Source: Rhodococcus sp. (in: high G+C Gram-positive bacteria) | GTDB taxonomy: Bacteria > Actinomycetota > Actinomycetes > Mycobacteriales > Mycobacteriaceae | Reading direction: 5' to 3' | DNA length: 64,000 bases | NCBI GenBank assembly: GCA_012514505.1 | Contig: JAAZAD010000512.1 | Span: forward strand, 1-64,000 | In this document: piece by piece, positions 55,699-62,084 of the stretch | How positions within the stretch are numbered: the first letter of the stretch is position 1 | How the letters are laid out: each line of letters starts with the position of its first letter | The notes under the pieces: generated by a model | Told to the model about the DNA's origin: nothing | Seen by the model: the letters and a program-made list of their open reading frames with translations, nothing else | The model's database searches: none | Translations under genes and position numbers: made by a program

Positions 55699-55811
55699 GC
55701 ATCGGTCCACGATGTCCAGCGCACCTGGTCGGCTCCTGTGCGGGGGTAGTCTCGGCGTGTCAAGAACTCCCGGAATCCGCGATGCGGATGCAGGGTCCGC
55801 TAGGAGGCGCC

Positions 55812-57017
55812 ATGTCGGACACCCCACGAGACCCGTCCGATTTCGAGACGGTCGAGGAGCGTCGCGCTCGCGTGTCCGCCCAAGTGCGGGCCTGGTGTGA
55901 GAACGCCCGCATCGACGGCCGCCACGAGCAGCTGTCCGACGAGGCGGCGGTTCTCATCGCGAGTGGACACCTCGACGAGGCAACACGAGACGTTCTCGCA
56001 AACCGTCGTCGTGCGGGTAGACAGATCCCGTCGATCGGCGGATTCGCGGCGTTGCGCGCGCTGACCGACGAGTACCACGACGTTGCGCGCAGGGCCGACT
56101 CGATGAAGCCCGGACCTGCTCAATTGGTGTTCAAGTTCCGGGCCACCGAAGTAGCCAAAAAGCTGAAGGCCATGCGCGCGACCGTGGTCAACTCGACCAC
56201 GCACTACGCCACCGGCGTACGGCAGATCCGCCGCGACCGCCGCGACGGACTGCACCTCGACCCCGCCCAGCGGGACGCGTTGTTCGCGGCCCTGCAACAC
56301 ACTCCGACGCCGAGCACCGGGAACTGGCTGTCCGACGCCGGAAAGGTCGTCCGGAACACCACCGTCGACAGACTTTCCGAGCTGTCCGGGACGGGCACCG
56401 TTGCGGGCCTCGGACGCAGGGTGGCGGATGTCATCGGCCGCGGGACCGAACCCGAGCACGACGAATTCGCCGACCCTTACGACGCCCTCCTGTTCCTGGC
56501 AGGGATGCTCTACGACCGCATCAACGGTTCGTCGACCTGGCATTCGGAGCACTTCGCGATTCAGCGGCACCAACTCGATCTCGGTCTGGAGCTGACGCAG
56601 ATCGCAGTCGACGCCATCGCTCTGCGTGGGATCACGGGGGAGCTGGCGCAGGCCTTGCGGGGCACCTATGGCGATGCCGCGCGCGAGCAAATTCGGTCGA
56701 GGCAGCAGGCGCTGGGTCCGGTGTGGGGGCAATTGGTCGAGCGGGTAGCGGCGTTGGCTCGTATCGGTGATCTCGTGGCTCAGGCCGAGGTTGCGCTGCG
56801 GTCGGTGATGGCGGTGCGCCACACGATGAGCTTGGACAGCCGGATCGACGAGTTGATCGCACGATCCGGGAATCGGGAGCTTTCGGTGGAGAACACGCAC
56901 TTCGTCGGGGATCAGTTCGCAGGGGTCGACGAGCTGATGGGCACGTATCAGAGCGCGTTGTACGGCGATATTGCCGCGTTGACGGCCTGGTCCGATCACG
57001 GCAGCGCCGGACGGTAG
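55812..57017 (+). CDS. Hypothetical protein (401 aa)
   Basis: No family recognised. The product is soluble and helix-rich: charged N-terminus (MSDTPRDPSDFETVEERRAR), EVAKKLKAMRATVVNSTTHY, RQIRRDRRDGLHLDPAQRD, then PYDALLFLAGMLYDRINGSS and a long C-terminal helical region (LGPVWGQLVERVAALARIGD). No signal peptide or membrane helix. The start ATG 55812 has AGGAGG upstream and begins a clear coding frame; the ORF-track start at 55782 is not supported. Divergent from the metal importer operon, convergent with nothing; followed by thiolase on the same strand. Confidence 0.72.
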   Translation: MSDTPRDPSDFETVEERRARVSAQVRAWCENARIDGRHEQLSDEAAVLIASGHLDEATRDVLANRRRAGRQIPSIGGFAALRALTDEYHDVARRADSMKPGPAQLVFKFRATEVAKKLKAMRATVVNSTTHYATGVRQIRRDRRDGLHLDPAQRDALFAALQHTPTPSTGNWLSDAGKVVRNTTVDRLSELSGTGTVAGLGRRVADVIGRGTEPEHDEFADPYDALLFLAGMLYDRINGSSTWHSEHFAIQRHQLDLGLELTQIAVDAIALRGITGELAQALRGTYGDAAREQIRSRQQALGPVWGQLVERVAALARIGDLVAQAEVALRSVMAVRHTMSLDSRIDELIARSGNRELSVENTHFVGDQFAGVDELMGTYQSALYGDIAALTAWSDHGSAGR

Positions 57018-60051: not shown

Positions 60052-60151
60052 GACCGGACCCGTATGGTGGGACGACAGTTCGAGTTGTGCCGCTGAACCC
60101 GTCGCCACTGCTCCTCAACAGCGCTCGGGCCGCAGCGACAGGACGGACACG

Positions 60152-60937
60152 ATGGAAGACACCGCGAGCAGAGGAATACACGCATTCATCGCAGACGTCG
60201 TCCAGCGAGGTGGGAAGGCGAAACGCCTCACTCATTCGCGGCGAAACCCGGTCCAGGTGTGGGGCGAGGCCGGCGAGAGTTGCGTGGTCCGCGTTCGCTC
60301 GAAACTGAGCGGCGATTGGCAGGCGCGTAAACAGGACGAGTCGCTCGAGGACGACGACACGGGTTCACAGTTCTGGGTGTTCGTCGACCTTGCGGCATCG
60401 CCGGAGGAATTCTTCGTGATCCCGTCAGCGGAGATCGCCGACGATATTCGTGAGGAAGTCGATCTGTGGATGATGGAGACCCCGGGTCGCACGCGAACGG
60501 GGCACCACGCCATTGGTTTGGCGCGTATTGCACACGGGCGTGATCGTTGGGATCTACTGGGGCTGAAGGGGCGTAGGGATCCGAGTTTGTACGCCGATTC
60601 GGAGTCCGAACGCGCGCAGGCGCGCCGCGACGACAAGCGCGCCGGCGCGGCGCGGCGTCGCCCAGCCGAAGCGGCGGTTGCAGACGAGGTGGTCGATTCG
60701 CGTCTACAGGTGGTGGCCGACTGCGAGGGCTACCGTCTGGTTGCCAGATTCGATCCGGTTTCTCATGGGCTCGAGATCACTCGGGGTCCGATGGAGGGCC
60801 GCCGTTTCCCCGATCCCACAACTGCTGCATCTGCCGTCGCCAGCCACATCAGCGGCGACGTGGAGAACCGTGACGGATGGGTGTTCTGGGAAATCGACAC
60901 GCCCGCCCGCCTCCCGTTGGGCAAACATGTGGCGTAG
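60152..60937 (+). CDS. PD-(D/E)XK-like degenerate domain plus RAMA/DUF4357-like domain
   Basis: 261 residues, two parts. The N-half (about 1-140) follows the layout of a widespread PD-(D/E)XK nuclease-like domain (SCVVRVRSKLSGDWQAR, FWVFVDLAASPEEFFVIPSA, HGRDRWDLLGLKG). However, the central (E/Q)xK strand reads VRVRSK, so catalytic residues are not clearly retained. After a basic linker, the C-half (about 185-255) resembles the RAMA/DUF4357 type, thought to read modified DNA: DPTTAASAVASHISGD then GWVFWEID. A GIY-YIG gene follows after 25 bp. Function is not established. ATG 60152 has AGGACGG upstream. Confidence 0.6.
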   Translation: MEDTASRGIHAFIADVVQRGGKAKRLTHSRRNPVQVWGEAGESCVVRVRSKLSGDWQARKQDESLEDDDTGSQFWVFVDLAASPEEFFVIPSAEIADDIREEVDLWMMETPGRTRTGHHAIGLARIAHGRDRWDLLGLKGRRDPSLYADSESERAQARRDDKRAGAARRRPAEAAVADEVVDSRLQVVADCEGYRLVARFDPVSHGLEITRGPMEGRRFPDPTTAASAVASHISGDVENRDGWVFWEIDTPARLPLGKHVA

Positions 60938-60950
60938 CGACCCGACCGCA

Positions 60951-60956
60951 TAGAGT
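60951..60956 (+). promoter_or_regulatory. -10 hexamer TAGAGT for leaderless GIY-YIG mRNA
   Basis: TAGAGT is followed by 6 nt and ATG 60963, inside the 25-bp gap after the upstream gene, so the GIY-YIG gene can be transcribed alone. Confidence 0.5.
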
Positions 60957-60962
60957 CGGGTA

Positions 60963-62084
60963 ATGGCTACAGTCTGGACGGTTCCGCTCGACATCCTTTC
61001 CCGCTGGCTCGACTCCGACGAGGTTCAGACCTTCCTGTCGTCCAACGACCTGGCAGATGCTTCGGCTGATCCGAAGGTGCGCTTGGCGCAGTTCGCTACC
61101 GTCACCGAGTCGTTGCAGCAGCACGTTGGCGAAACGTACACCTCGGTTCAGGCGGCGTCCGCGGCACTCTTCGACGGAATAAATACCGGTCTCGGCGTGC
61201 CCGTCGGCTTGAAGCTCGCCGCGTTGCGCCTTGTGGTCACCGCGGTGCACCAGACCCGTCCGTCGCCGCAGCCGTTGCCGAATACGGTGACCGAAGAACT
61301 GGGCCGGTATATTTTCGCGCTCCGGGACCCGCGGAGTCGCCGCGTCTTCTACGTCGGATCGGGTACGGGCAACCGGGTGTTCGGCCACGTGTGGGCGGCG
61401 TTGGAAGAGAACGAGAAACGCCAGGTGCTCACCGATCCCGAGACTGACTCCGCTGCGGTTCGTGATGCCGTGATCGAGCGTATCCGTGCCATCTACGACT
61501 CGGGACACGATGTCGAGCACTACGTCCTCGCGCATGGAATCGGCCCCGCCGCAGACGGCTCCGCCTCGGCGACGGATCGTCTGAATGCGCTCGTTGCCGG
61601 GTTCGGGCTGTACGAGCGCGGTGGGGATCGGCCGACGCTGACCAATCTCTCGGGTGGCGACGACGGAAAGGCCACGCGCATAGAAGATCTGGCACTGCTG
61701 TACTCGGCGGAGCGAGTACCGGACCTGCCCGTCCCGTGCGTGCTGTTGGAGGTGAAGCAGGCTGCGAGTCGTGAGGCCACCGCAGAGGAGATCTACGCAG
61801 CCTCACGTCAGGCGTGGCCGGCGGGCACTGCGGTGCGCAACACTTCGGATCTTCCGTTGATCGTGTTTGCCGACAACATCGTTCGCGCCGTGTACCGAGC
61901 CGAATCGTGGGAGATCGCTTCCCGCTCGGCCGACGCGGCGCAGTGGAAGTTCACCGGTGAGGTCGATGCGGAACTCGAGAAGCAGTTCGTGCACAAGCGT
62001 GTCACTCCGGATCGGGTCGGCCTCAAGCGGTGGCCGGCCCACGGCTGGGTACCGCACCTGACCAGCGCCCGTCCCGGGCTCTGA
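60963..62084 (+). CDS. GIY-YIG nuclease-family protein (LEM-3-like)
   Basis: 373 residues. A helical N-terminal region (1-110) of unknown fold, then the GIY-YIG core: GRYIFALRDPRSRRVFYVGS, GTGNRVFGHVWAALEENEK (about 114-150), with the first 'YIF' and second 'FYVGSGTGNR...H' strands, as in the LEM-3-like branch. The C-terminal segment IVRAVYRAESWEIASRS and KFTGEVDAELEKQFVHKRV is an extra domain often attached to these nucleases. A single-strand or Holliday-like DNA cleavage role is known for LEM-3 relatives; substrate here is unknown. Adjacent to the PD-(D/E)XK-like gene. Confidence 0.82.
   Translation: MATVWTVPLDILSRWLDSDEVQTFLSSNDLADASADPKVRLAQFATVTESLQQHVGETYTSVQAASAALFDGINTGLGVPVGLKLAALRLVVTAVHQTRPSPQPLPNTVTEELGRYIFALRDPRSRRVFYVGSGTGNRVFGHVWAALEENEKRQVLTDPETDSAAVRDAVIERIRAIYDSGHDVEHYVLAHGIGPAADGSASATDRLNALVAGFGLYERGGDRPTLTNLSGGDDGKATRIEDLALLYSAERVPDLPVPCVLLEVKQAASREATAEEIYAASRQAWPAGTAVRNTSDLPLIVFADNIVRAVYRAESWEIASRSADAAQWKFTGEVDAELEKQFVHKRVTPDRVGLKRWPAHGWVPHLTSARPGL

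Follow-up and report, generated by a model that had tools for sequence, protein, structure and literature searches.

The two adjacent genes analysed here, located in a window of 64,000 nucleotides (the whole stretch of Rhodococcus DNA that was studied), do not constitute the two-gene restriction system that had been proposed for them. They are independent chromosomal genes, for the most part belonging to the core genome, whose contact at this locus is coincidental, and the downstream gene, ORF 2, represents instead a conserved branch of the CMoRE family that appears to be dead. CMoRE is an enzyme, described only recently, that cuts phage DNA; the sister lineage that includes ORF 2 is without its catalytic residues and is near-universal in Rhodococcus.

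ORF 1 and ORF 2 are encoded on the same strand and are separated by a 25-bp gap that contains the sequence TAGAGT, and in these respects, as in the ORF coordinates, the original prediction was accurate. The window is C474 among the 609 contigs of its assembly, for which contamination is estimated at 6.9%; homologous contigs in named genomes come from R. opacus, R. jostii, R. erythropolis and others, which places the host in Rhodococcus. The neighbours of the pair are a Dak kinase, a thiolase and a lipase-like ORF (the last two read from sequence), and the two genes sit among metabolic genes rather than in a defence island. A 411-aa ORF at 55782–57017, for which no significant Pfam match was obtained, is conserved in the neighbourhood of ORF 1 in the erythropolis clade and in R. 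marinonascens. The features of the locus are:

60063..60068, + strand: TATGGT, probable −10 (TANNNT) of the ORF 1 promoter, from orthologue comparison.
60075..60151, + strand: conserved 5′ leader of ORF 1, with the blocks CGAGT[C/T]GTG, CCCGTCG and ACGGG.
60152..60937, + strand: ORF 1, 261 aa, an eroded PD-(D/E)XK-like domain joined to a RAMA domain.
60152..60571, + strand: N-terminal PD-(D/E)XK-like domain of ORF 1 with a worn active site; Foldseek matches 2ost, 9qcc and 2eo0.
60692..60904, + strand: C-terminal RAMA domain of ORF 1; sub-threshold PF18755 match and fold match to 7ydw.
60951..60956, + strand: TAGAGT, putative −10 (TANNNT) of ORF 2, six bases 5′ of the ATG in a leaderless arrangement.
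60963..62084, + strand: ORF 2, 373 aa, a CMoRE/PD-T4-3 homologue that appears catalytically degenerate.
60963..61274, + strand: N-terminal extension of ORF 2 (aa 1–104), common to the plasmid copies.
61275..61658, + strand: GIY-YIG domain of ORF 2 (aa 105–232), its active site probably lost.
61359..61361, + strand: Ser133 codon, aligned with the FYVGKG lysine of CMoRE.
61581..61583, + strand: Leu207 codon, aligned with the catalytic metal-binding glutamate of CMoRE.
61659..62012, + strand: C-terminal domain of ORF 2 (aa 233–350), homologous to the 5hmC-sensing domain of CMoRE, with Tyr247 at the Tyr127 position.

ORF 2 was matched by the PD-T4-3 model of PADLOC (E = 1.2e-17), and its residues 105–337 matched PDB entries 9u7u and 9u75 (E = 4e-12). 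These structures are of CMoRE, a type IV restriction enzyme encoded by a single gene, in which a GIY-YIG domain at the N-terminus is followed by a 5hmC-sensing domain at the C-terminus (PMC12923530). ORF 2 is colinear with CMoRE across both domains and belongs to the PD-T4-3/CMoRE family, although it had been stated that no named system was known for the pair. The N-terminal extension of 104 aa is also found on the homologues carried by Rhodococcus plasmids. Because ORF 2 has a sensor-type domain of its own at the C-terminus it needs no sensor partner. A tyrosine occupies the position of CMoRE Tyr127 in 38 of the 40 chromosomal homologues and is Tyr247 in the window protein; since Tyr127 contacts 5hmC via its main chain (PMC12923530), this residue would be weak evidence of ligand binding. 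A loop region of ORF 2 is longer and acidic, and its alignment to the negatively charged autoinhibitory loop of CMoRE is of low confidence.

Every active-site mutation tested in CMoRE abolished cleavage in vitro (PMC12923530). When ORF 2 is aligned to this enzyme, the metal-binding glutamate is replaced by Leu207 and the lysine of FYVGKG by Ser133. In a set of 40 unique homologues encoded on the chromosomes of Rhodococcus and related genera, the glutamate is found in none (here the alignment around residue 207 is gappy and the column less certain than the other motif columns), the lysine in 2, the histidine in 12, the arginine in 21 and the YIG tyrosine in 31; position 138, the arginine site, is K, Q or D in 19/40. 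The first tyrosine of the motif is invariant in this set (n = 40), and the third tyrosine of GIYxY-YIG, which is Phe118 in the window protein, is retained in 33/40. Three further chromosomal sequences, from genus g9, are also without the glutamate and the lysine. Outside the chromosomal lineage, 17/17 relatives have the full set of Y, Y, Y, K, R, H, E and N; these come from plasmids of Rhodococcus, E. coli, Enterobacter, Komagataeibacter and Roseibium, from the jumbo phages OBP and Yubaba, from two viral contigs, from genera g4 and g40, and from second copies in g10. ORF 2 had been described correctly as a GIY-YIG domain preceded by a long N-terminal extension, but the intactness that was attributed to its nuclease does not hold at Leu207 and Ser133.

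The tree would fit a single active-site loss at the base of the chromosomal lineage; its support is modest (72/53, 70% of bootstrap trees) and it has long branches. Because the AF2 model of ORF 2 was poor (mean pLDDT 46, 12 sequences), the argument about the active site rests on sequence columns. Omega between close species was 0.01–0.11 for ORF 1 and 0.03–0.17 for ORF 2, indicating that both genes are under purifying selection. Among the papers searched, none reported a dead GIY-YIG restriction homologue in Rhodococcus. The CMoRE-like genes of Rhodococcus plasmids (L160–L162), which encode intact active-site residues and the N-terminal extension, each lie just downstream of a serine recombinase gene.

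The distribution of the two genes shows that they are independent. Of 28 Rhodococcus genomes, 27 carry ORF 2, the remaining one being 75% complete, and 23 carry ORF 1; the two are adjacent in a single genome, that of the window. The distance between them is 0.8 kb in R. marinonascens and 6.0–6.5 kb, with a large gene in between, in ten genomes of the opacus group and its neighbours, and in at least ten Rhodococcus genomes they are megabases apart or on different contigs. The same picture was obtained in a family sample of 251 genomes covering related genera, where either gene may be present singly: genus g6 carries ORF 1 but not ORF 2, g10 carries ORF 2 at full length but no full-length ORF 1, and in g48 both are mostly present, at a separation of over 1 Mb in the four cases that could be placed on one contig. 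Core genes held in one constant place had been named as a finding that would contradict the proposal; much of this applies, since the genes are near-universal, although the position of the pair is not constant. A two-gene module is ruled out by this distribution, by the distances between the genes and by their separate promoters.

Among 27 Rhodococcus genomes with ORF 2 there are 12 in which recC directly follows the ORF 2 homologue in the same orientation (G001, G005, G006, G007, G013, G016, G019, G020, G021, G024, G025 and G027; for example L044:13379–17860), at a distance of about 0.12 kb in eight of them and about 1.1 kb in four.

Separate control of ORF 2, which had been suggested from the −10 hexamer in the gap, proved to be better founded than originally stated. 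The first base of a TANNNT motif is placed exactly at −12 relative to the ATG of ORF 2 in 40/40 homologues (37 chromosomal, 3 plasmid), across which the neighbouring genes differ and the three middle bases vary. As background, 8 of the 1340 ATG triplets in the window and 6 of its 48 predicted genes show this arrangement. Leaderless promoters of M. tuberculosis have a TANNNT −10 element centred 7–12 bp upstream of the start site (PMC3898074), and the predicted ORF 2 promoter is of this known actinobacterial leaderless arrangement. An inverted repeat (ACCCGAC...GTCGGGT, 60940–60961) overlaps the ORF 2 −10, and the 51-nt region there folds better than shuffled sequences (z −2.5); the repeat was not seen by eye in the other ORF 2 upstream sequences that were compared.

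ORF 1 has no TANNNT at the −12 position. It has its own TANNNT[G/C] at −89 to −102 in all orthologues with this type of leader, and the leader itself is conserved in most groups, the erythropolis clade being the exception. These separate promoters argue against a module. The leader blocks CGAGT[C/T]GTG and CCCGTCG are near-invariant across several genera and may belong to an operator or an RNA element. A structured RNA is not claimed for the leader, for which we found no Rfam match and no covariation. An in-frame start upstream of ORF 1 was also rejected, since the leaders have lengths that are not divisible by three and the upstream GTG of the window is out of frame (our own reading), and the ATG at 60152 was therefore kept as the start.

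The architecture predicted for ORF 1, a nuclease-like fold with a worn active site followed by a RAMA-like C-terminus, is supported by weak profile and marginal fold matches. RAMA (PF18755) matches occur at the same place in the window fragment and in two orthologues (best E = 0.0098, Pfam), with scores of 12.7–16.3 bits against a Pfam threshold of 35.2. An AlphaFold model built from 23 sequences reached a mean pLDDT of 71.5, with the RAMA part mostly at 82–93, and its C-terminal part was matched by 7ydw, the structure of the MPND RAMA domain with DNA (Foldseek probability 1.00, E = 0.017). Fold matches for the N-terminal domain were to I-Ssp6803I, a SPARDA effector and a Holliday-junction resolvase (Foldseek probability 0.82–0.99, E = 0.01–0.07). 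The best fold matches of the predicted structure all fall within the PD-(D/E)XK and RAMA families, none being decisive singly. The PD-(D/E)XK acids are not kept: by our own reading, VRVRSK stands at the likely D...(E/Q)xK position, without acidic residues. An NCBIfam search gave no match for either the ORF 1 or the ORF 2 protein, and a PDB profile search with the ORF 1 alignment returned a chance match only. The modified-base preference of RAMA itself is unsettled: a preference of MPND for 6mA was not confirmed, and the RAMA domain of CcrM touches only the DNA backbone (PMC9963953, PMC11037411).

Relatives of the ORF 1 domains were found in several fusion proteins. Fusions of the N-terminal domain to EVE and NOV_C (DUF3883) occur in the R. 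qingshengii strain IEGM 1359 (L136:9998–11290) and in R. fascians (L137:10001–11300) and are candidate modification-dependent restriction proteins. On a Tsukamurella plasmid (L170:949–4169), a ResIII/DEAD helicase protein, the helicase part of which matches the PbeA models of PADLOC, ends in an ORF 1-like N-domain and RAMA module; its gene adjoins those for a Vsr endonuclease and a DUF262 protein. Domains of the ORF 1 type therefore recur in restriction-like proteins. On another contig of the window genome (C374; L052:803–3738), a helicase-like ORF is followed by an ORF of 384 aa, the C-terminus of which is related to the RAMA-like domain of ORF 1. Spread of ORF 1 by phages or plasmids was considered and set aside, there being no phage match, no relative on a viral contig and only two distant plasmid matches.

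The explanation that we favour, and consider probable, is that ORF 2 is a domesticated and catalytically dead CMoRE lineage that binds DNA without cutting it, and that ORF 1 is an independent DNA-binding protein that likewise does not cut. This model builds on computed results, namely the homology, the missing residues, the presence of the genes in nearly all of the genus, their independence of each other, the conserved promoters and the selection, from which we infer a loss of nuclease activity, DNA binding, a ligand and a role. ORF 2 would descend from a modification-dependent restriction enzyme of the CMoRE/PD-T4-3 type; the ancestor of the chromosomal lineage would have lost the catalytic metal-binding glutamate and the lysine of the GKG motif, while purifying selection across several actinobacterial genera would have preserved the fold together with the extension at the N-terminus and the sensor domain at the C-terminus. 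The protein, made from a leaderless promoter of its own, would bind DNA via the retained sensor domain without cutting. By descent its ligand would most likely be DNA with modified cytosine, as suggested by the overall homology and one aligned tyrosine, and it may act as a regulator or a blocker. ORF 1, with its eroded PD-(D/E)XK-like domain and RAMA domain, would act on DNA independently. More tentatively, domestication in several actinobacterial genera may have produced a core, non-cutting reader of modified cytosine that either marks or silences modified phage DNA or reads a host mark; were phage DNA marked or silenced in this way, it would amount to interference without cleavage.

A serious rival, although we hold it to be unlikely, is that ORF 2 serves as a conserved factor for DNA ends or repair, with a possible link to RecBCD, and binds DNA regardless of base modification. 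It is serious because the gene lies just upstream of recC in the 12 genomes noted above, and the near-universality of ORF 2 in the genus, unlike that of a sporadic defence gene, would fit such a role; however, adjacency to recC is absent from the window, from the erythropolis clade and from several small-genome species, and where it occurs it may be mere shared ancestry of gene order. Less probable still is that ORF 2 remains an active nuclease, either with a different acidic residue (E218, for instance) or by a changed mechanism. An acidic residue is conserved at position 218, 11 positions downstream of 207, in 39/40 homologues (E or D), D198 is found in 35/40, the first tyrosine is invariant and the arginine is kept in about half; E218 could serve in place of the canonical glutamate. 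Plasmid copies with the canonical glutamate also have glutamate at position 218, however, and because they carry both residues E218 is not obviously a replacement; moreover, the lysine, histidine, arginine and YIG tyrosine drift along with the glutamate.

It is also conceivable, though improbable, that ORF 2 is an immunity factor that joins and poisons CMoRE-type tetramers encoded on plasmids or in phages. CMoRE works as a tetramer (PMC12923530), and relatives with intact active sites are present on Rhodococcus plasmids and in jumbo phages, but identity between ORF 2 and the plasmid copies is only about 36%, and these are found on so few plasmids that upkeep throughout the genus for such a purpose is unlikely. 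We give almost no credence to the original reading in which ORF 1 is the sensor of modified bases and brings in ORF 2 as the cutter: the genes are adjacent in the window and their component domain types recur in restriction-like proteins, but the active site of ORF 2 appears lost, the promoters are separate, the genes are not adjacent elsewhere, and each occurs singly in related genera. What stands of that proposal is the general link to modification-dependent restriction, through CMoRE homology and the domain fusions, and not the pairing of a sensor with a nuclease.

A lineage in which the catalytic residues are gone and the sensor domain is retained is a case in which nature has apparently uncoupled sensing from cutting, and it points to a function of such sensors in the host. 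The Rhodococcus plasmid copies with intact active-site residues are a ready positive control. Defence surveys based on profiles could report a PD-T4-3 system for almost all Rhodococcus genomes, in which the enzyme probably has no activity.

Compared with known systems, ORF 2 most resembles CMoRE/PD-T4-3, with which it shares the single-gene format and, over aa 105–337, the colinear GIY-YIG and C-terminal sensing domains; it keeps the first and YIG tyrosines, the arginine and, with Tyr247, a tyrosine at the 5hmC-contact position. It differs from CMoRE in having neither the catalytic glutamate nor the motif lysine, in the phenylalanine at the third tyrosine, in the N-terminal extension of 104 aa and in being vertically inherited, near-universal and apparently equipped with its own leaderless promoter, whereas CMoRE is a sporadic defence gene. 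The ‘GIY-YIG nuclease family protein’ of Rhodococcus plasmids (pN9T4-1, pCRE138 and the RL1 plasmid) matches ORF 2 over its full length, including the N-terminal extension, and has TANNNT at −12, but keeps the whole active-site set and is about 36% identical. The C-terminus of ORF 1 resembles, weakly, the PF18755 profile of RAMA proteins such as CcrM and MPND and, in fold, the RAMA domain of MPND; unlike in these proteins it is joined to an eroded PD-(D/E)XK-like domain. The predicted fold of that domain (aa 1–140) may be shared, given marginal matches (E = 0.01–0.07), with the homing endonuclease I-Ssp6803I and Holliday-junction resolvases, from which ORF 1 differs in being without the catalytic acids.
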